A stretch of DNA of 64,000 nucleotides from Devosia sp. Root635 (GTDB taxonomy: Bacteria > Pseudomonadota > Alphaproteobacteria > Rhizobiales > Devosiaceae): contig NZ_LMGZ01000019.1 in NCBI RefSeq assembly GCF_001427605.1, forward strand, positions 1-64,000. The letters run 5' to 3'. The notes beneath the pieces were generated by a model. The model made no database searches. It was not told where the DNA came from and saw only the letters and a list, made by a program, of their open reading frames with translations. Position 1 is the first letter of the stretch. The number at the start of each line of letters is the position of its first letter. Below are positions 35,011-48,616 of this stretch, in pieces. The position numbers and the translations under genes were made by a program.

Positions 35011-35028
35011 GTCGGCTCCCCAGGCTGT

Positions 35029-35048
35029 TGGTGCCCCCCGCCGGACTC
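35029..35048 (-). other. Candidate attL: 3' end of a tRNA gene
   Basis: Read on the minus strand these 20 bases are GAGTCCGGCGGGGGGCACCA. They fit the end of a tRNA: the T-loop end GAGT, T-stem CCGGC, acceptor GGGGGGC, discriminator A and CCA. The 5' part of the tRNA is missing, as expected for the displaced 3' fragment at one prophage end. A leucine-type tRNA is possible but not proven. Confidence 0.6.
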
Positions 35049-35189: not shown

Positions 35190-36557
35190 TTGCGCCGTGG
35201 CGCCGATCCCGATCGATACCTGACCCTCAAGGGGCAGCGATACCACTACAAGCGGCGGGTGCCGTCGAGCCTTCACGCCATGTTCGGCGGCGATACGCAC
35301 GTGCGCAAGAGCCTCAAGACCGACGACCTCGCCATTGCCCGGGTGAAGCGGGACGAGCTGGAGGAGGCCGACGATCGCCTGTGGGAGGCGCTGGCGCTTG
35401 GTAAGCCGAGCGAAGGGGCGAAGGCCGCCTATGAGGCCGCAGTGGCCACAGCGCTCGCCCTGCGCTTCGCATACCGGCCTGCGATCGAAGTCGCGGCCGA
35501 GCCGCTGCCAGACTTGCTCGGACGGATCGCGGCCGTGCCGGAATCGGGAACCAGCCGGCCGATCGCCGATGCGACCCTTGGTCTGCTCGACGCGCCCAAG
35601 GTCACGGTGACCGAGGCATTCGATATCTATTTCGACGTGATCGCCACCGACGAGCTGCGCGGCAAGAGCGCAAAGCAGCGGGCCGACTGGCGTAAGGTAA
35701 AGACCCGGGCACGGAACAACTTCATCCAGGTCGTCGGCGATATCACCCTCACCGACACGACCCGTGACCAGGCGCTGCAGTTCTATGACTTCTGGCGGAA
35801 GCGGATTGCGCCGAACGATCGCGAGATTGCCGAGGGCGCCCTCATCACCCACTCACCGGCCAGCGGCAACCGCGACATCGGCAATATGCGCGTGCTGTTC
35901 ACCGCCTACCATCGTCACATCGGCCAGATGGACAAGTTCAATCCGTTCTCCGGGCTCGGCTTCGAGGAGGACGATGAGCGGACGCGGCCACCCTTCCCTG
36001 TCGAGTGGATCACAGGAACCATCCTGGCGCGTGGTGCGCTGTCGGCGCTCAATCCGCCGGCGCGGCGCATCTTCCTGACATTGGTGGAGACCGGCGCCCG
36101 TCCGAGCGAGATCGCCAACCTGCTGCCGCGGCACATCGTGCTCGACCACGACATTCCGCACATCGTCATCAGCCCGCGCCGCGAACGCGAAGATCCTCGC
36201 CAGATCAAGACCGGCACATCGGTGCGCAAGGTGCCGCTGCTGGGCGTGTCACTGGCGGCGATGCAGGCCAGTCCCAAGGGCTTCCCTGAATACCACGACA
36301 ACGAGACGACGCTGTCCAACACGCTGATGAAGCATTTCCGCAAGCACAAGCTGCTGCCGACGCCGGCGCACACCATCTACTCGATCCGCCATGCCTTTGA
36401 GGATCGGATGAAAGATGCGCTGGTGGACGAGGAGGTGCGGAAGCTATTGATGGGCCATGCTATCGATCGCCCACGCTATGGCAGCGGCGGCAGCCTGGAA
36501 CTGCGCCGCGAGGCACTGGCGCGGATCACGCTGCCGTTCGATAAGACGATAGTTTGA
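35190..36557 (+). CDS. Phage integrase (tyrosine recombinase)
   Basis: A 455-residue integrase starting at TTG, with GGAG about 8 bases upstream; no in-frame ATG is near. The N-terminal part with RYLTLKGQRYHYKRRVPSS resembles the arm-binding domain of long alphaproteobacterial phage integrases. The catalytic domain shows R in ETGARPSEIANL, the IRHAFEDRM region with H and R, H in LLMGHAIDRPRY and the probable nucleophile Tyr in that same segment. It catalyses integration and excision at the adjacent att site. Confidence 0.92.
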   Translation: MRRGADPDRYLTLKGQRYHYKRRVPSSLHAMFGGDTHVRKSLKTDDLAIARVKRDELEEADDRLWEALALGKPSEGAKAAYEAAVATALALRFAYRPAIEVAAEPLPDLLGRIAAVPESGTSRPIADATLGLLDAPKVTVTEAFDIYFDVIATDELRGKSAKQRADWRKVKTRARNNFIQVVGDITLTDTTRDQALQFYDFWRKRIAPNDREIAEGALITHSPASGNRDIGNMRVLFTAYHRHIGQMDKFNPFSGLGFEEDDERTRPPFPVEWITGTILARGALSALNPPARRIFLTLVETGARPSEIANLLPRHIVLDHDIPHIVISPRREREDPRQIKTGTSVRKVPLLGVSLAAMQASPKGFPEYHDNETTLSNTLMKHFRKHKLLPTPAHTIYSIRHAFEDRMKDALVDEEVRKLLMGHAIDRPRYGSGGSLELRREALARITLPFDKTIV

Positions 36558-36575: not shown

Positions 36576-37103
36576 GTGTCAATTTTCACCTTGCAGATCG
36601 ACGATGCTACACCCTGCACCAAATGCGCGGAAGCGGTACCACTTCTCGTATCGCACTGCCCTCATTGCAGCCACGTTGCCCTGCATCGGCTGACGTTTGA
36701 TCAGTTCTTTGGAGAGATGGAGCACGGTCGCATTGTCAGCGCCAAGACTGGCGGGCTTGTGGTTGGGCGCACCACGGACGAAGACGATATCCCGATGTAC
36801 CAACACGTGAAGGGCAACGTGTTCGCGGCCGTTGGTTTGATGCAGGGTGGCGAGTATCTGATGTCGAAAGCCGCGTCGATCGCCCACCGTGAGCGGATTG
36901 ATCAGATAAACGCAGTGAAGGGCAAGGCGCCAGCGAGTTTCCCGATTTCCCTCACCGCTCTATGCTCTGTAATCAATACCAATCTCATGCCGCCCTGGTC
37001 GGGCATCTGGATTGATTGGGGGCAGTACGTGGTCAACCGATTTGCAACAGCACAGCATTTTGAAGAACTGGAAGAGTTGAACGCGGACGTCCCAATGGAA
37101 TGA
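36576..37103 (+). CDS. Zinc-ribbon-containing protein of unknown function
   Basis: A 175-residue product from a GTG start, 18 bases after the integrase stop. Near the N-terminus CTKC and CPHC form a probable zinc ribbon (about residues 14-32). The rest has no recognised domain; a segment LMPPWSGIWIDWGQYVVN could be partly buried. Base composition is lower in GC than neighbouring phage genes, a sign of separate acquisition. Its place between integrase and TcmP is typical of phage cargo. Function unknown. Confidence 0.6.
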   Translation: MSIFTLQIDDATPCTKCAEAVPLLVSHCPHCSHVALHRLTFDQFFGEMEHGRIVSAKTGGLVVGRTTDEDDIPMYQHVKGNVFAAVGLMQGGEYLMSKAASIAHRERIDQINAVKGKAPASFPISLTALCSVINTNLMPPWSGIWIDWGQYVVNRFATAQHFEELEELNADVPME

Positions 37104-37125: not shown

Positions 37126-38064
37126 GTGCGGCCTATGCTCCCCAGAGTGGGGATTCGGGGCACGCACTTGGCAAGAGATGCAGATGAACATGAGTTTGGG
37201 TCCGATGACACCGACACCAAGCTGCGACTAGTCCGAGATTATCTTAGCGCCTACGCGACAGCGCTCCGCCCAAAGTTCAACCATCTCTGGTACATCGACG
37301 CCTTCGCGGGTACCGGCAGCCGGTCGGTAAAGCATCCAGCACGGCCCGGCGATTTTATGAACGTCGAGGACGTGCCCGAAAGAGTGGAGAAGCGGCCTGG
37401 GTCGGCGCGCATCGGCCTAGAGATTAGTCCGGCCTTCGATCGTGTCATCCTTATGGACAGCAAGCCGCGCCATATCGCTGCACTTGAGGCCCTAAAAGTT
37501 GAGCACCCGCATCGAGACATCCATGTGGTCCCGGGTGACTGCAACCGCTTCATCCAAGACCAGTTGGCCAAGACGAACTGGGCAAGCAAGAGGGCAGCTC
37601 TGTTCCTCGACCCATATGGCATGGAGGTCGAATGGGCCACGCTCAAGGCCATTGCATCTACCGAAGCCATCGACGTCTGGTATCTGTTTTCGTTGGAGGG
37701 GCTCTATCGCAACGCAGCTCACGACATCAACGATGTCGACCAAGTGAAGCGAGCGGCCCTGACCAAGCTGCTGGGCACCGATGAATGGGAACGCGAGCTG
37801 TATTCCGTGCACCAGCCGCCGACCGATCTGTTCGACTATACGCCGCCGGAAGAGCGACGGCGGAACGCCGATGTGGCAGGCCTCGAGGCCTACGTGACCC
37901 GGCGACTGCGAGAGATATTTCCGATGGTTCTCGACCCTTATGCATTGCCGGTCGGGCGGAAGCCTCAGCGCTTCTCGCTGTACTGCATGATCTCTAACAA
38001 GGACGGCAAGGCGCTAGGGCTGGCGCGTCGGATCGGCGATCACATACTCAAGGCGGGCAAGTGA
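37126..38064 (+). CDS. tcmP: Three-Cys-motif partner protein TcmP
   Basis: A 312-residue protein recognised as TcmP. It begins with a segment containing DTKLRLVRDYLSAYATAL. A methyltransferase-like Rossmann motif follows, LWYIDAFAGTGSR, then RIGLEISP and FLDPYGMEVEW, where DPYG resembles motif IV of DNA/RNA methyltransferases. TcmP genes occur next to genes for DUF5131 'three-Cys' proteins, as here: the 3' ends overlap by 25 bases in convergent orientation. Start is GTG at 37126 or ATG at 37135. The biochemical role is not established. Confidence 0.85.
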   Translation: MRPMLPRVGIRGTHLARDADEHEFGSDDTDTKLRLVRDYLSAYATALRPKFNHLWYIDAFAGTGSRSVKHPARPGDFMNVEDVPERVEKRPGSARIGLEISPAFDRVILMDSKPRHIAALEALKVEHPHRDIHVVPGDCNRFIQDQLAKTNWASKRAALFLDPYGMEVEWATLKAIASTEAIDVWYLFSLEGLYRNAAHDINDVDQVKRAALTKLLGTDEWERELYSVHQPPTDLFDYTPPEERRRNADVAGLEAYVTRRLREIFPMVLDPYALPVGRKPQRFSLYCMISNKDGKALGLARRIGDHILKAGK

Positions 38065-38792
38065 TCCCAAGTGCGGCCGAGATAGGTTCGGCCCGCGGCC
38101 TTCTTGTTGCGTCCGCCCCACTGCTTGAAGAAGAAGGCGGCGCCGTGCCGGTCGCAGGCCTCACGGATTTCCTCGACCCATTCCTCCTGCATCGGCCGCG
38201 CCTTGGGCCCGCTTTCGCCGCCGACGATTGACCAATGGATGCCAGCCAAATCAGCGCCGGCCACTGAGCCGAGCAACGGCTCGAAGGAGACGAAGCGCAC
38301 CGCGGCGGGTACCAGGCGCAGATGGTCGAGACGTTCGAGCACGCGGTCATCCTCGACGCTGGTGCCCAGCCAGACATTAGGCAGGATGCGGAATCGGCTT
38401 TCGCGGAGAACCTCGGCCATGCGCTCCGGCCGCTTGGTCAGGATCTGATACGTGTGGCGCGGCGTCGCCGCCATGGTCTGCCAGACCAGTTCGATGAAAT
38501 CGGCCGGCACGTCCTCATGGAAGAGGTCGGACATGGAATTGACGAAGATTTTGCGCGGCTTCTTCCAGGCGATCGGCGCATCGAGCGATGCGTGATCAAG
38601 CCGGACCTTGCCGGTCCAGACGGCACGTCCGCCGCTCTTGCGGGTGAGGCCTTCATATTTTTCGACATCCATGGCTTCGAGTCGGGCGGCCATACGCATA
38701 GCATAGCAGTTGGTGCAGCCGGCGGTGACGATGGTACAGCCGGCAACGGGGTTCCAGGTGGCGTCAGTCCATTCGATCGATGTTTCGGCCAT
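38040..38792 (-). CDS. DUF5131 (phage Gp37/Gp68-like) three-Cys-motif protein
   Basis: A 250-residue protein of the DUF5131 family. It opens with TSIEWTDATWNPVAGC and has three cysteines at residues 19, 26 and 29 (CX6CX2C). These recall an iron-sulfur site of radical-SAM type. Further conserved parts are FVNSMSDLFHEDVP, YQILTKRPERM, and WSIVGGESGPKARPM. It is the last gene of the leftward early operon, 19 bases after the preceding gene, and converges on TcmP. Activity is unknown; nucleic-acid or nucleotide modification is a guess. Confidence 0.88.
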   Translation of the reverse strand: MAETSIEWTDATWNPVAGCTIVTAGCTNCYAMRMAARLEAMDVEKYEGLTRKSGGRAVWTGKVRLDHASLDAPIAWKKPRKIFVNSMSDLFHEDVPADFIELVWQTMAATPRHTYQILTKRPERMAEVLRESRFRILPNVWLGTSVEDDRVLERLDHLRLVPAAVRFVSFEPLLGSVAGADLAGIHWSIVGGESGPKARPMQEEWVEEIREACDRHGAAFFFKQWGGRNKKAAGRTYLGRTWDHLPALSM

Positions 38793-39061: not shown

Positions 39062-39637
39062 TCAGGCCGCCAGTGCGCCGAAGGGGCGCAGCGCGCCTTC
39101 GAGGGCCTTGCGGAAGGCCTCTTCGACCTTGGGCTGCGCCATGAACTTGATGCGGGCCGGCAGCGGCACGGCCTCGGGGCGCCAGTCGGGGTGCTTGCCC
39201 TTGACGATGTCGCGGTATTCGGTGGCGAGCGCGACCTGGTCGGCCTGGTCGACATCGTCGAGGATGGCCTGGCTCGGCAGCGGCAGGTTGAAAGCGGGAT
39301 AGATCGCCTCGTGCAGGATGCGGCACTCCAGCCCGACAACGTCGGCGCCCTGATCCATCAGCCAGAGCTTCCACGGCGTTGCCAGATCGCGCGTTACATA
39401 TTCGGGTGCGTCGTGCAGCAGCGCGTAGGGCCTGGACGACACGAGCCGGCAGGCCGAGGCGGCGATCAGGGTGTGCTGGGCCACCGTGAAGCTCGCCGTC
39501 TCGATGTTGCCGTACCAGCGGTTCTCGCGCGACAGGTGGTGCACGATGTCGTCGAGGCTCACCATTTCGGGCTTCGGGTTGGCGAAGTCGAAGGCGCGGC
39601 CGCTCGATGTGGTCAGCCAGAAGCGAGACATGGTCAT
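39062..39637 (-). CDS. HD-domain phosphohydrolase
   Basis: A 191-residue protein with an HD-type active site: the first His in SFTVAQHTL, the HD pair in ALLHDAPEYVTRD and a later DVDQADQVALATEY. It resembles YfbR-like nucleotidases (COG1896), which dephosphorylate deoxynucleotides and could serve phage DNA synthesis. The ATG at 39637 overlaps the preceding stop (ATGA); a second ATG two codons later is possible. Confidence 0.83.
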   Translation of the reverse strand: MTMSRFWLTTSSGRAFDFANPKPEMVSLDDIVHHLSRENRWYGNIETASFTVAQHTLIAASACRLVSSRPYALLHDAPEYVTRDLATPWKLWLMDQGADVVGLECRILHEAIYPAFNLPLPSQAILDDVDQADQVALATEYRDIVKGKHPDWRPEAVPLPARIKFMAQPKVEEAFRKALEGALRPFGALAA

Positions 39638-39726
39638 GGCTGGCGCTGCCCGAAATGGAGGGCGACGCCGGCGGCGATCATGATCAGGCCAACGACCAGG
39701 CCGATGGCGATATCGGGGTTGCTCAT
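39634..39726 (-). CDS. 30-residue single-helix membrane peptide
   Basis: A tiny gene between ATGA overlaps with both neighbours. The product starts MSNPDIAIGLVVGLIMIAAG and is almost entirely one transmembrane helix with a short basic end (GQRQP). The precise start/stop overlaps on both sides argue that it is real. Function unknown. Confidence 0.6.
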   Translation of the reverse strand: MSNPDIAIGLVVGLIMIAAGVALHFGQRQP

Positions 39727-39812
39727 TCGAACACCCCCGCATGAATGCAGACCAGCCAAATGCCGAGGAAACCGCAGGCATAAGGGAAGAGGTCGAGTGC
39801 GAAGGCGCTCAT
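39723..39812 (-). CDS. 29-residue hydrophobic peptide
   Basis: The product begins MSAFALDLFPYACGFLGIW and would form one membrane helix. Start and stop overlap the neighbouring genes by ATGA on both sides, as in a translationally coupled chain. It contains two cysteines. No family recognised. Confidence 0.5.
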   Translation of the reverse strand: MSAFALDLFPYACGFLGIWLVCIHAGVFE

Positions 39813-40825: not shown

Positions 40826-41458
40826 CTAATCCTCCCGCTGCACCGAGTATATCACCCGCCCGACGACTCGGACCACGGCTTCCACGTCATCATCAATCGG
40901 AATGGGAGCTTGAAAGCGCGGGTCTGTGCTCTCGGGCATCAGCCAAAGCCTGCCATCCTCATCTCGACTGAGCGTTTTTACGGTCGTTTCTCTGGTTCCG
41001 TCCGGGCGTTCGCGTTCCACAATGTAGCGCTTGCCGACTTCCAGCCGTTCACCGGCCGCGATGAAGCTAGTATGCACCAACACCGTTTGCTCGGGATAGC
41101 GACGGTTCATTGATGGGCCCCTTGTCTCAGAGCCGAACAATTCCAGCGTTCGGTATCGCGGGTCGTCTGGGATTGCGACCGAGTACCATTCTTCCTCGGG
41201 CCATTCCGAATGGCTCTCCCACGCTCCCGCCTCCACGTGACTGCGGACTTTTACAATTCGCGTCGCTGAGGGAGCAGTGATGATCTGTTCGGGAGGAACA
41301 CCGAACACCGTCGAGAAACGAGCCATCCAATCCTGGGTGAGCTTCATTTTCCCGGAGATCAGTTTGCTGACGGTGATGGGATGTGCGTCGATACCGGCCG
41401 CGACATCGTCGCGTGACAGGTTTCTTTCGCGCATCAACTCTTTGATCCGATTGCCCAT
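40826..41458 (-). CDS. CI-like phage repressor (XRE helix-turn-helix plus S24-like domain)
   Basis: A 210-residue protein. The N-terminal helix-turn-helix covers about residues 5-60 (LSRDDVAAGIDAHPITVSKLISG). The C-terminal LexA/CI-like domain has GPSMNRRYPEQTVLV, with the probable catalytic Ser before Met. A later lysine lies in RETTVKTLS. Such repressors keep lysogeny and are inactivated by RecA-stimulated self-cleavage. It very likely binds the five 15-bp operators around it. It is divergent from the Cro-like gene. Confidence 0.9.
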   Translation of the reverse strand: MGNRIKELMRERNLSRDDVAAGIDAHPITVSKLISGKMKLTQDWMARFSTVFGVPPEQIITAPSATRIVKVRSHVEAGAWESHSEWPEEEWYSVAIPDDPRYRTLELFGSETRGPSMNRRYPEQTVLVHTSFIAAGERLEVGKRYIVERERPDGTRETTVKTLSRDEDGRLWLMPESTDPRFQAPIPIDDDVEAVVRVVGRVIYSVQRED

Positions 41459-44474: not shown

Positions 44475-44713
44475 TGAAGAACCGTCTTTCCGACCTCAAC
44501 AACCACCTCTTCGCCCAGCTCGAACGGCTGTCTGACGAAGATCTGACGCCCGAACAGATCGACACCGAGGCTAAGCGTGGCGAGGCGATCGTCACTGTTG
44601 CGGACCAGATTATTCGCAATGCCGCGTTGCAGATCAAAGCGGCTGAGCTGGTCGCCGAATATGGGTCCAATCCCGAACCCTACCTGCCGCAGATCGAGGG
44701 CAAGGCGTCATGA
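44474..44713 (+). CDS. Small hypothetical phage protein
   Basis: A 79-residue helical protein that includes LNNHLFAQLERLSDEDLTPE and EAIVTVADQIIRNAALQIKA. It resembles short helical proteins found beside phage HNH genes, but I cannot name a family. Its stop overlaps the start of the HNH gene. Confidence 0.6.
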   Translation: MKNRLSDLNNHLFAQLERLSDEDLTPEQIDTEAKRGEAIVTVADQIIRNAALQIKAAELVAEYGSNPEPYLPQIEGKAS

Positions 44714-45531
44714 CGAGGCGCGGGCCCATCCATTACTCGGCAGCGGAAATGACTTGGCTTGAAGCCAACCGCTCGATGATCATCAGCGACTATCACGCCG
44801 AATTCGTTGCCGCGTTCGGCCGTTCCGATGTTGACGCCGCCCATCTGCACAGCCTGCGCAAACGCAAAGGCTGGAAGGTCGGCCGAGAGCCGGGCAGGAC
44901 CAAGGGTCGACTGTTGAAGTATTCGGCGGCCGAGATTGCCTGGCTGCGCGAGAATTGCGGCCTGATGATCGGCGAGTTCCATAGTGCTTTTTGCGTCCAG
45001 TTCGGCCGTGTCGATATCTCAGCCGAGCAGCTGAACGCCCTGCGCAAGCGGCAGGGCTGGAAAACTGGTCGCACCGGTCATTTCGCCAAAGGGGCGGCGC
45101 CAGCAAACAAGGGCAAGAAGATGCCCTTCAACGCGAAGTCGGCGGCAACCCAGTTCAAGAAGGGTCAGGTGCCGCACACCTTCCGCGGCGCCGGTCATGA
45201 ATCGGTCGACGAGGACGGCTACGTCTGGATCATCATCGACGCGCCGAACCCATGGACCGGAGCGGCCACCCGCCGCATCCACAAGCATCGATGCCTTTGG
45301 GAACAGGCCAACGGGCCGGTGCCAGAAGGCTACGTGCTCAAGTGCCTGGACAGCGACAAGCTCAACACCGATCCGAGCAATTGGGAAGCCATCCCGATGG
45401 CCGTGCTGCCGCGACTGAACGGTCGTTTCGGTCGTGGCTATGACACGGCGCCGGCGGAACTCAAGCCGACGATCATGGCGGTGGCCAAGCTCGAGCATGC
45501 TTCGCGCACCAGGCGTGAGGCGGCGCGATGA
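44710..45531 (+). CDS. HNH-motif protein with duplicated DNA-binding-like modules
   Basis: A 273-residue protein. Two related modules of about 55 residues lie in tandem: the first has HYSAAEMTWLEANRSMI and the second KYSAAEIAWLRENCGLM. Each ends in LRKRKGWKVGR or LRKRQGWKTGR, suggesting a tandem helical DNA-binding unit. The C-terminal part carries an HNH-type nuclease core: HKHRCLWEQANGPVPEGYVL, then DPSNWEAIPM. Homing or phage-encoded endonucleases often have this composition. Activity is inferred. Confidence 0.75.
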   Translation: MTRRGPIHYSAAEMTWLEANRSMIISDYHAEFVAAFGRSDVDAAHLHSLRKRKGWKVGREPGRTKGRLLKYSAAEIAWLRENCGLMIGEFHSAFCVQFGRVDISAEQLNALRKRQGWKTGRTGHFAKGAAPANKGKKMPFNAKSAATQFKKGQVPHTFRGAGHESVDEDGYVWIIIDAPNPWTGAATRRIHKHRCLWEQANGPVPEGYVLKCLDSDKLNTDPSNWEAIPMAVLPRLNGRFGRGYDTAPAELKPTIMAVAKLEHASRTRREAAR

Positions 45532-45887
45532 CCGCACTCAACTTCATGGCCAAATTTTCCGGACCGGTCGAGCGGCGAGAGAAGCGGCGGAGCATCCGGG
45601 CGAAGGGCGATCGCTTCAAGGTCGGTGGCAGCATCCAGCTTTACACCGGCATGCGGACGAAGGCCTGCCGAAAGCTGGTTGCCAATGACCCTGTCTGCAC
45701 TGCTGTCGAGCCGATAACGATCCGGCAGGACAGCGTGTGCATCAACGGGCGCTATCTCAACGTGCCGGAGCGCCAAGCCTTGGCGATCGCCGATGGCTTC
45801 GAAGGTATCTTGCCGTTCTGCGATTTCTTCCTCGATGGCTCCCACGTGTTCAACGGCTTCCTCATCGTATGGGACTGGCCGGAATGA
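45528..45887 (+). CDS. ASCH-like domain protein
   Basis: A 119-residue protein whose beta-rich sequence, with KGDRFKVGGSIQLYTGMRTK and PFCDFFLDG, fits small ASCH-type domains. ASCH folds resemble PUA domains and bind RNA or modified nucleotides. It is coupled to the helicase-methyltransferase gene by an ATGA overlap. The assignment is moderate. Confidence 0.6.
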   Translation: MTALNFMAKFSGPVERREKRRSIRAKGDRFKVGGSIQLYTGMRTKACRKLVANDPVCTAVEPITIRQDSVCINGRYLNVPERQALAIADGFEGILPFCDFFLDGSHVFNGFLIVWDWPE

Positions 45888-48616
45888 ACATGCCGATCCG
45901 ATACGAGGAATTCCTCGCCGCCAAGGTGGCCATGGCGCCGGTCTCGGGCTTCGTCGTCGAAGATCACGAGATCAATCCGCTGCTCAAGCCGCACCAGAAG
46001 GCCATTGTCAAATGGGCATGCCTGGGCGGCCGGCGCGCCATCTTTGCCGCCTTCGGGCTCGGCAAGAGCTTTATGCAGATCGAGATCCTCCGGATCATCT
46101 GCGCGCGGTTCGGCGAAGGCGCCAGCATGGGCCTCATTGCCGCGCCGTTGGGTGTGCGCCGCGAGTTCTTTGCCGACGTGCGTACGCTGGCCACCGGCAA
46201 CCACCCCGATATCAGCGACGCGCAGCGCGACGAGCTGACGGCGTGGCAGGAAGGGCATCCGAATCGGGTGCCGTCGCTCAAGTTCATTCGCGGCCTGACT
46301 GAGGCGGTACCCGGCCTCAACATCACCAATTACGAGACGATCCGCGACGGCAAGCTCGACCCGCGCGACTTCCTCGCCGCGTCGTTGGACGAGGCCTCGG
46401 TGCTGCGCGGCTTTGGCGGCACCAAGACGTTCCGTGAGTTCATGCGGCTGTTCGATGGCATCCGCTTCAAGTTCGTCGCCACGGCCACGCCGTCGCCCAA
46501 CCAGTATATCGAGCTGCTGGCCTATTCCGCATTTCTCGAGGTGATGGATGTCGGCCAGGCCAAGACCCGGTTCTTCAAGCGCAACAGCGAGAAGGCCGAC
46601 ACGCTGACCATCCACCCGCACAAGCAGCGCGAGTTCTGGCTGTGGGTGGCGAGTTGGGGCCTATTCGTGCAGAAGCCCAGCGACCTCGGCTTTTCAGACG
46701 AAGGCTACGCGCTGCCGCCGCTGACCGTGCACTGGCACGAGCTGCCGGCCGACCATACGACGGCCGGCGAGGAGAAGAGCGGCCAGGGGCGCCTTCTGCG
46801 CAATGCCGCCGCCTCGCTATCGGACGCCGCCCGCGAGAAGCGCGACAGCCTCGATATCCGCATCGGCAAGATGGTCGAACTGCGCGCGCTCGACCCGGCG
46901 GCGCATCGCGTCATCTGGCACGACCTCGAGGATGAGCGGCGGGCGATCGAGAAGGCGGTACCGGGTATCGGCGCGGTCTATGGCAGCCAGGACCTCGAAG
47001 CCCGCGAGGCCATGGTGGCCGAGTTCGCCGAAGGCCGGCGCCGCGAGCTGGCAGGGAAGCCGTCGATGCTCGGCTCGGGCAGCAATTTCCAGCGGCACTG
47101 CCACTGGGAAATCTTCCTCGGCATCGGCTTCAAGTTCAACGACTTCATCCAGGCGGTGCATCGCTGCTACCGATTCCTGCAGCTGCACGAAGTGCGGATC
47201 GACCTGATCTACACCGAGGCCGAGCGGCCGGTGCGGGACGTGCTCGAAGCCAAGTGGCGCCGCCACGACGAACAGATGGCCATCATGACAGAGATCATCC
47301 GAGAATACGGCCTCGCCTCGGCGGCGATGGCCCAGAGCCTGACGCGCGCCATGGGCGTGGAGCGGGTGGAGGTGAGCGGGCCGGGCTATGTGCTGGTCAA
47401 CAATGACTGCGTGCCTGAATGCCAGGCCATGGCCGCCGACAGCGTCGACCTGATCGTCACCTCGATCCCGTTCTCGACGCAGTACGAGTATTCGCCCAAC
47501 TATGCCGACTTCGGCCATACCGACGACAATGGCCACTTCTTCGCGCAGATGGATTTCCTGATCCCGCAGCTGCTGCGCGTGCTCAAGCCCGGGCGGATCG
47601 CCGCCATCCATGTGAAGGACCGGATCGTGCCGGGCGGCATGACCGGCCTCGGCTTCCAGACGGTTTACCCGTTCTCCGACGACACGATCCGCGCCTTCGT
47701 TCGGCATGGCTTCGCCTTTCTCAGTCGCAAGACGATCACGACAGACGTGGTGCGCGAGAACAACCAGACCTATCGGCTGGGCTGGACCGAGCAGTGCAAG
47801 GACGGCTCGCGCATGGGCAACGGCATGCCGGAATACCTGCTGGTGTTCCGCAAGCCGCCCACGGATGCCTCTGACGGCTATGCCGACGAGCGGGTGCCCA
47901 AGGGCATGAAGTTGTGGGTGGACGATGCGCGCAAGGCGCTCAAGGACCCCAAGCTCAAGGCGCACCGCCCGGCGATCCGCGAGCTGATCGCGGCCGAGGG
48001 CGACAAGGCCGGTGTGATCAGCGGCTGGATCAACCCGAACGGCTATAGCCGCGCCCGCTGGCAGCTCGATGCGCATGGCTACGAGCGGGTGACCGGCAAC
48101 CGGCTGCTGACGCCCGAGGAAATGCTCGGGCTCGACGCCAATGTCATCTTCAAGCTGTGGAAGGCCTACCAGCTCGACCAGGTCTATGACTTCGAGCATC
48201 ACGTCAAGATTGCCGAGGCGCTCGAGGAGAAGGGCGCGCTGCCGTCGACCTTCATGCTGCTGCCGCCGCATAGCCGGCACGAGGATGTGTGGACCGATGT
48301 CGCCCGCATGCTGAGCATGAACACGCTGCAGGCGCAGCAGGGCAAGGAACTGCATCTGTGCCCGCTGCAGTTCGACATCGTCGATCGCGCGATCAACCAA
48401 TACACGGCGCCCGGCGAAGTGGTGTTCGACCCGTTCGGCGGGCTGATGACGGTGCCGATGCGCGCGCTGAAATTCGGGCGGCAGGGTCGCGGCGTCGAGC
48501 TGAACCCGGCCTATTTCGTGGACGGCTGCGCCCATGTGCATGCCATGGCCGAGGAGCTGGCCATGCCTGACCTCTTCGGCCTGATGGAAATCGAGCAAGA
48601 GGAGATGGTGGCGTGA
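45884..48616 (+). CDS. Helicase-DNA methyltransferase fusion protein
   Basis: A 910-residue protein. The N-terminal half is an SNF2/DEAD-like ATPase: Walker A-like AFGLGKS (56-62), LDEAS (DEAS at 169-172), TATP (200-203) and a motif VI-like QAVHRCYRF (423-431). The C-terminal half is a beta-class amino-methyltransferase with motif IV before motif I. The order is TSIPF (SIPF at 527-530), then VFDPFGG (DPFGG at 849-853) with a following RGVELNPAYF. Both methyltransferase motifs depart from the usual (S/N/D)PP(Y/F) and DPFxGxGT. It may modify phage DNA and translocate along it. The ATG at 45884 overlaps the previous stop. Confidence 0.85.
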   Translation: MNMPIRYEEFLAAKVAMAPVSGFVVEDHEINPLLKPHQKAIVKWACLGGRRAIFAAFGLGKSFMQIEILRIICARFGEGASMGLIAAPLGVRREFFADVRTLATGNHPDISDAQRDELTAWQEGHPNRVPSLKFIRGLTEAVPGLNITNYETIRDGKLDPRDFLAASLDEASVLRGFGGTKTFREFMRLFDGIRFKFVATATPSPNQYIELLAYSAFLEVMDVGQAKTRFFKRNSEKADTLTIHPHKQREFWLWVASWGLFVQKPSDLGFSDEGYALPPLTVHWHELPADHTTAGEEKSGQGRLLRNAAASLSDAAREKRDSLDIRIGKMVELRALDPAAHRVIWHDLEDERRAIEKAVPGIGAVYGSQDLEAREAMVAEFAEGRRRELAGKPSMLGSGSNFQRHCHWEIFLGIGFKFNDFIQAVHRCYRFLQLHEVRIDLIYTEAERPVRDVLEAKWRRHDEQMAIMTEIIREYGLASAAMAQSLTRAMGVERVEVSGPGYVLVNNDCVPECQAMAADSVDLIVTSIPFSTQYEYSPNYADFGHTDDNGHFFAQMDFLIPQLLRVLKPGRIAAIHVKDRIVPGGMTGLGFQTVYPFSDDTIRAFVRHGFAFLSRKTITTDVVRENNQTYRLGWTEQCKDGSRMGNGMPEYLLVFRKPPTDASDGYADERVPKGMKLWVDDARKALKDPKLKAHRPAIRELIAAEGDKAGVISGWINPNGYSRARWQLDAHGYERVTGNRLLTPEEMLGLDANVIFKLWKAYQLDQVYDFEHHVKIAEALEEKGALPSTFMLLPPHSRHEDVWTDVARMLSMNTLQAQQGKELHLCPLQFDIVDRAINQYTAPGEVVFDPFGGLMTVPMRALKFGRQGRGVELNPAYFVDGCAHVHAMAEELAMPDLFGLMEIEQEEMVA

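Follow-up and report, generated by a model that had tools for sequence, protein, structure and literature searches.

A tail-to-tail TcmP and DUF5131 gene pair in a Devosia prophage as a putative two-enzyme module for nucleic-acid base modification

The window analysed here is a stretch of 64,000 nucleotides from Devosia sp. Root635 (contig NZ_LMGZ01000019.1, positions 1 to 64,000) and carries, within a prophage, the genes of a TcmP family protein and of a DUF5131 protein. The pair lies 2.1 kb inside the inferred left attachment site attL, between the integrase and an S24-type repressor gene. Both genes converge and share 25 bases at their 3' ends, and reading frames, coordinates and overlap were found as the initial annotation had described them (Table 1). 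The analysis was done by computation and covered family membership, linkage, predicted folds, conservation, replacement of one partner, exchange of TcmP and the defence or restriction-modification (R-M) genes in the neighbourhood. We read TcmP and DUF5131 as a two-enzyme module that modifies nucleic-acid bases and is carried as defence cargo, a reading for which we see even chances and in which target and activity are putative.

Table 1. Coordinates of the gene pair and of neighbouring prophage features in the window
Feature	Position	Strand	Basis
attL (inferred), 21-base direct repeat	35028..35048	.	
Integrase, phrog_1, first gene inside attL	35190..36557	+	phrog match
175-aa protein without family match, between integrase and TcmP	36576..37103	+	
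TcmP, predicted class I methyltransferase fold, RlmJ/Trm1-like	37126..38064	+	TIGR04474, predicted fold
Tail-to-tail overlap of TcmP and DUF5131, 25 bases, both stop codons within	38040..38064	.	
DUF5131 protein, predicted radical-SAM barrel	38040..38792	-	PF07505, predicted fold
phrog_318 protein (deoxyribonucleoside 5' monophosphate phosphatase), upstream on DUF5131 strand	39062..39781	-	phrog match
Prophage repressor, helix-turn-helix + Peptidase_S24, upstream of DUF5131, same strand	40826..41458	-	

The TcmP protein of the window belongs to the family TIGR04474, with 182 bits over residues 28-297 at a cut-off of 53 bits. Its GTG start at 37126 is probably set some 15-20 codons too early and the true start lies downstream, because the proteins of relatives begin immediately ahead of the HEFG motif and the structure model is of low confidence over its first 20 residues. 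AlphaFold2 models of TcmP and DUF5131 were built from family alignments. Such fold searches were needed because sequence searches of solved structures gave chance-level or weak rows: the TcmP profile matched RlmJ weakly (E = 0.014), the DUF5131 sequence gave a single chance-level row (E = 0.55) and the DUF5131 profile gave none. For the TcmP model (mean predicted local distance difference test, pLDDT, 91.8) RlmJ, the 23S rRNA m6A2030 methyltransferase, was among the best solved structures (Foldseek rank 1, E = 2.2e-7; VIA Z 15.2, root-mean-square deviation (rmsd) 3.8, 211 residues aligned). The tRNA G26 dimethyltransferase Trm1 reached the highest Z, tied with RlmJ (VIA Z 15.8, rmsd 4.0, 215 aligned). 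The TcmP profile also matched E. coli RlmJ itself (E = 1.4e-6), placing the LDPYG of TcmP on the DPPY motif of RlmJ.

The methyltransferase-like motifs FAGTG and DPYG, from which a methyltransferase had been guessed before, are present as DAFAGTG (motif I) and LDPYG (motif IV), and the predicted fold agrees with that guess. Four residues (K32, Y39, G62 and D162) are invariant in 71/71 aligned TcmP sequences; among them are the motif I glycine G62 and the acidic motif IV residue D162 which, together with the predicted Rossmann-like fold, are the marks of class I S-adenosylmethionine (SAM)-dependent methyltransferases. TcmP is therefore predicted to be a class I methyltransferase of the RlmJ/Trm1 kind, with putative activity. 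Fold and motif order are common to TcmP and RlmJ, but the two are only about 13-14% identical, RlmJ has DPPY where TcmP has DPYG, and the window's own genome encodes a separate rlmJ homologue. To Trm1 the likeness is again in the fold, at 12% identity, and motif IV of Trm1 is DPFG, resembling the DPYG/DPFG of TcmP. The rlmJ homologue of the genome (G000:C12:350216-350955, loci L295 and L296) matches in two overlapping pieces, which may be due to a frameshift or a sequencing error.

The DUF5131 protein is a member of PF07505 (327.7 bits, gathering cut-off 28.9). The initial annotation had suggested that its CX6CX2C site could hold an iron-sulfur cluster; the three cysteines C19, C26 and C29 proved invariant in 86/86 aligned sequences and the predicted radical-SAM fold is in line with the suggestion. 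In the model (mean pLDDT 93.2) the cysteine cluster sits near the first strand of a barrel, as in radical-SAM enzymes, and the best VIA matches, from Z 12.4 down to about 10, are radical-SAM enzymes. The nearest solved fold is spore photoproduct lyase (SPL; Z 12.4, rmsd 3.0, 190 aligned), followed by viperin (Z 10.8, rmsd 3.2, 182 aligned) and lipoyl synthase (Z 10.6, rmsd 3.5, 196 aligned). We therefore predict DUF5131 to be a radical-SAM enzyme of the SPL kind, with putative [4Fe-4S] binding and SAM cleavage. SPL and the SPL-like radical-SAM proteins (Rv2578c, PA0069, mobile pair A/B) are its nearest likeness in fold, but they have CX3CX2C instead of CX6CX2C and no sequence family is common to both at cut-off. 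Against TIGR04471 (radical SAM mobile pair protein A) DUF5131 scored 74 bits, below the equivalog cut-off of 355, which makes it a distant relative only.

To see how firmly both genes are linked, 167 TcmP places, either above the cut-off or found by the scans, were inspected (26 from an even sample, 80 from a named-genome scan and 61 from viral contigs, the sets overlapping slightly). DUF5131 is in the same block at 158 of these places, six have a different SPL-like radical-SAM gene and three lie at contig ends. The even sample consists of 337 genomes of the same class, 25 of which hold TcmP above the cut-off, at 26 places in all; DUF5131 lies within 1 kb at 25 of the 26 and the exception is at a contig end, so that the claim of genomic partnership holds. 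Six places below the family cut-off were excluded from all linkage counts. In the named-genome scan DUF5131 is in the block at 79/80 TcmP loci, the remaining one ending with its contig, and in the viral contigs at 54/61; the genome and viral scans favour the closest relatives (listing the best 80 of 557 and the best 80 of 594). The distribution over the 337 genomes is patchy, with DUF5131 in 46 and TcmP in 31 at E 0.001 or better, 25 of them over the cut-off. A tblastn search with DUF5131 matched 159 phage records, and one with TcmP at least five, which is a lower bound because TcmP is too diverged for a single-protein query. In several Bradyrhizobium, Tardiphaga and Afipia genomes (L152-L159) the pair lies near housekeeping genes which by eye resemble radA and cvpA, a placement which suggests that just these two genes are able to insert at such sites.

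The seven viral TcmP loci without DUF5131 could have been taken for partnerless, a possibility we rejected after inspection of the neighbours. One is cut by a contig end, and the other six have another radical-SAM-like protein of about 255 residues directly downstream. Four of these six proteins were scanned and match the TIGR04470, Rv2578c and PA0069 models, all far below the cut-offs. When one of them was compared with the DUF5131 profile, cysteines aligned on cysteines (E = 2.8e-4, probability 41%). A search with the second radical SAM returned 17 viral loci, and all 17 have TcmP directly upstream (profile matches of 45-239 bits); the search reached close relatives only (62-100% identity), and 4/17 contigs had already been met through TcmP. 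In one of these loci (L317, 4018-4995) the upstream TcmP is split into two frames. Since TcmP loci lacking DUF5131 carry this second enzyme, what TcmP is regularly paired with is a radical SAM of the SPL type and not DUF5131 alone. No report of such a partner rule was found in the open PMC papers searched.

The relation between both proteins was analysed further on a set of unique pairs. Merging identical tails reduced 249 pairs to 190, and dropping weak or short pairs and near-duplicates led via 180 to 121 loci used for trees. Identities of DUF5131 and TcmP correlate poorly across the 121 paired loci (0.21). Where two DUF5131 proteins are at least 80% identical (68 locus pairs), the median identity of their TcmPs is 31%, and it is under 25% in 28% of the cases. 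Between L010 and L022, for example, DUF5131 is 86.8% identical and TcmP 23.0%, with both pairs convergent; ten tested members of the second TcmP group in this comparison all scored above the TIGR04474 cut-off. Of the two proteins TcmP is the one that varies, and it perhaps faces the target.

The pair had been proposed as an undescribed system with a possible role in defence. As far as the name is concerned this has to be corrected, as PADLOC already lists candidates made up of a TcmP-like A and a DUF5131-like B protein (PDC-M41 and the related PDC-M30). The window TcmP matches PDC-M41A (E = 2.3e-72) and the DUF5131 protein PDC-M41B (E = 4e-105), and the two genes stand side by side, overlapping, as PDC-M41 demands; with the second radical-SAM partner these models gave weak matches or none. 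What stands is that no characterisation of the TcmP/DUF5131 pair or of its reaction was found in the open PMC literature searched; no mention of DUF5131 was found there either, while the full TcmP name occurs in three papers (PMC12429752, PMC12445080 and PMC7387457). PDC-M30 occurs, according to a passage of one study, in 32 P. aeruginosa strains, 68.8% of which are phage resistant (PMC10855318), and PA14 carries two copies according to a passage of another (PMC11878078). The pair is also not rare, given that TcmP is over the cut-off in 25/337 genomes of the class.

To examine the genomic context, ten large genes upstream of TcmP were picked by eye from six loci. Defence genes lie directly upstream in four of the six, namely type III Mod and Res (L189), a DUF1156 methylase and a PLD helicase (L212), HmaC and a TIR protein (L223), and a GmrSD-type HEC-05 together with HmaC (L224); among the large upstream genes of L209 (UvrB) and L226 (a protein without match) no defence match was found. 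In a random draw, 50 PADLOC families were matched at E 1e-25 in 131 near genes (of 214 eligible) and 6 in 131 far genes (of 161); the counts are of families, which overlap, and the distinct proteins are fewer.

Loci with the second radical SAM gave a related picture. By scan, an R-M or defence gene lies directly downstream in 8/17 of them: type III Mod in L284 (same contig as L304) and L311, GmrSD-like genes in L310 and L313, HEC-07 in L318, a type II restriction enzyme in L314 and L315, and a type I methylase in L316. L305-L307 start like the type III Mod loci. In L320 type III Res and one end of a Mod gene lie upstream, and in L317 a piece of an N6 methylase lies about 2 kb upstream of the broken TcmP. 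No such gene, or end of one, was found beside the pair in L308, L309, L312 and L319. We also considered that TcmP replaces the type II DNA methylase in L314 and L315, and rejected it: L314 has a DUF1156-type methylase convergent to the restriction gene, and L315 an unscanned look-alike.

A further neighbour is found on pSymA of S. meliloti (L291, 3325-8986), where a short TcmP comes after a helicase-like gene of 845 aa on the same strand, and a long TcmP and DUF5131 lie on the other strand. The helicase is taken to be Hna because Table 1 of PMC12445080 lists SMa2245 Hna together with SMa2243 TcmP, both rising together; the passages on them state no role for TcmP. The likeness to the Hna locus lies in the helicase beside short TcmP, long TcmP and DUF5131; the difference is that PADLOC labels the helicase PDC-S28 and that the record is without annotation. 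Blocks with two TcmPs occur in L208 and L222 as well, and in L222 the second TcmP sits between TcmP and DUF5131. Taken together, PADLOC matches and defence or R-M neighbours are consistent with the defence role that had been suggested for the pair.

In the mechanism we propose, the pair would change bases in nucleic acid and thereby shield the lysogen from other phages or mobile elements. Judged from fold and conservation, the three invariant cysteines of DUF5131 would hold a [4Fe-4S] cluster that cleaves S-adenosylmethionine. TcmP, from its fold and motifs, would use SAM to methylate bases in the manner of RlmJ and Trm1. It might recognise the target and methylate or flip out a base, and the radical-SAM enzyme might then act on the same target; both steps are guesses. 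TcmP would set the specificity, a guess made because TcmP diverges and is exchanged whereas the radical-SAM partner is constant. We infer in this way all the biochemistry, the one common nucleic-acid target (DNA or RNA), the specificity of TcmP and the protection against phages. The question is narrowed to a methyltransferase fold of the base-amine type that hardly ever occurs without an SPL-type radical-SAM neighbour, has two interchangeable partners of this kind and is often found in or beside R-M operons.

More tentatively, and with clearly less confidence, TcmP plus an SPL-type radical SAM (DUF5131 or its replacement) can be imagined as a general, modular machine in which a methyl/radical relay introduces or takes away a base modification new to DNA or RNA. 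TcmP would be its exchangeable specificity subunit, and the machine would accompany R-M systems of several types. If the pair indeed makes a new base modification, a radical-chemistry branch would be added to modification-based immunity.

Several observations weigh against a base-modifying defence module. On the side of the enzymes, motif IV of TcmP is DP in 58/71 sequences and DQ in 13/71, Q replacing P, and the second proline of the RlmJ motif DPPY is missing (DPYG in the window). Foldseek relates DUF5131 to SPL with a weak score (E = 3.8e-3), unrelated barrels are mixed into its VIA rows from about Z 9 down, and its cysteine spacing is not the classic CX3CX2C; variant spacings are known within the radical-SAM superfamily. 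On the side of the pairing, tree distances of TcmP and DUF5131 show only weak agreement (Spearman 0.17, against at most 0.16 in 1000 permutations; 121 loci), which is unlike what a strictly co-evolving pair gives. DUF5131 stands with TcmP at 25 and without it at 24 of its 49 places in the 337 genomes, some of the latter being fragments or near contig ends, and a profile search left 26 of the 80 listed viral DUF5131 loci without TcmP. Since DUF5131 is so often found alone, it has some function without TcmP; a recurring alternative partner was not found in the 26 viral loci. On the side of the context, the defence signal near DUF5131-type pairs is moderate and the sampling uneven, and the far control genes also match defence families (mad3 in two genes, three PDC-M61A models, DarG and MTase_II). 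No restriction gene was seen beside the window pair among the gene and family matches of the window. Finally, a biochemical or phage test of the pair was not found in the open PMC literature.

The main rival is a toxin-antidote or guard pair, to which we assign a modest probability. Here TcmP would put a harmful mark on RNA or DNA, the SPL-like partner would remove it, and an upset by a phage would lead to a growth stop. The lopsided linkage would fit such a pair, as 164/167 TcmP places have a radical-SAM gene in the block (the other three are at contig ends) and DUF5131 lacks TcmP at 24/49 places. The predicted SPL fold, that of a lesion-reversal enzyme, would suit reversal chemistry, and R-M operons can carry RNA-directed guards such as PrrC. 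However, toxin-antitoxin genes are mostly co-directional and tightly coupled, whereas the close relatives of the window pair are mostly convergent, though 21/25 pairs of the even sample are co-directional. Moreover, with DUF5131 conserved and the TcmPs far apart from each other, a single antidote would have to serve many toxins.

Less probable, and in our view unlikely, is that the pair decorates the prophage's own DNA to escape restriction in a new host. Phages do carry it, including the window prophage and phages of Synechococcus and Gordonia, the 159 phage records with DUF5131 point in the same direction, and the window prophage has, in addition, a gene for a 959-aa protein containing a DNA methylase domain (45737-48616). 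However, self-modification makes little sense for those pairs that adjoin R-M, Hma-like and Hna-like genes, as they do in bacterial genomes and on a megaplasmid, and the interval between integrase and repressor more typically holds genes for lysogeny than genes for late modification of DNA. Lesion repair, with DUF5131 as an SPL-like DNA repair enzyme and TcmP as an accessory, is suggested by the solved structures nearest to the DUF5131 model, which are spore photoproduct lyases. We regard it as improbable, because the patchy distribution, the mobile-element and defence contexts and the swapping of partners are all unlike core repair.

In returning to our preferred reading, the base-modifying module, the tail-to-tail overlap remains to be explained. 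How often the pair converges, which the initial annotation had proposed as a check, depends on the sample. Among the closest 80 loci of the named-genome scan 74 are convergent, 73 of them overlapping, and 50 of 61 viral TcmP loci are convergent, all overlapping; as the scans keep the closest relatives, these shares are not those of a random sample. In the even sample of 25 linked pairs only four are convergent, whereas 16 have DUF5131 first, five TcmP first and none is divergent. The 190 unique pairs, among which close relatives are numerous, comprise 138 convergent pairs, 33 with DUF5131 then TcmP, 16 with TcmP then DUF5131 and three divergent ones. Quick trees built from the 121 loci require at least 16 changes of arrangement on the TcmP tree and at least 15 on the DUF5131 tree.

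The pair of the Synechococcus phage Ssp-JY39 converges with an overlap of 46 bases. In five examples with a 46-base overlap, the conserved end of DUF5131, when read antisense, gives the tail of TcmP; this account holds for these five examples alone, the literal tail motif being present in only 38/138 convergent pairs. Short convergent overlaps are not rare in themselves, as 49 kb of E. coli contain three protein-coding convergent pairs, one overlapping by 25 bases, one by 4 and one 2 bases apart. Compact packing of two genes with presumably separate promoters explains the overlap better than a regulatory switch does.

A position of DUF5131 in a PL early operon, as assumed before, could not be confirmed. 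The gene lies downstream of the S24-type repressor on the same strand and may for this reason belong to the repressor transcript, and promoter-like sites are at background level (2 sites vs 1.7 in shuffles). Equally, the idea of mutually antagonistic expression from PL and the integrase side is not supported: in the Gordonia phage PantheRoc it is TcmP that lies behind the immunity repressor, with DUF5131 encoded on the opposite strand, so that the roles of the strands are reversed relative to the window. That the overlap is a device making expression of both genes mutually exclusive is the least probable of the explanations, as the frequent overlap (134/138 unique convergent pairs, by 4-75 bases) and the convergence kept in loci with very different TcmPs are outweighed by the repeated changes of arrangement, the co-directional pairs (49/190 unique, 21/25 in the even sample) and three divergent ones, the swapped strands in PantheRoc, the short overlaps of E. 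coli (2/3 pairs) and the antisense tails of the five 46-base examples.

The prophage reaches past the window. A second copy of the 21-base repeat lies at C19:79278-79298, overlapping the 3' end of a tRNA-Leu(CAA) gene, and the extent of the prophage is therefore put at about 44.3 kb. An identical TcmP is present in an IMG/VR contig of 43,858 bases. Further inside the prophage, a protein with an HNH endonuclease domain (PF13392) is encoded at 44710-45528 (+). In the 959-aa protein, also on the plus strand, the DNA methylase domain (PF01555) occupies the C-terminal part, and the N-terminal part looks helicase-like by eye only.

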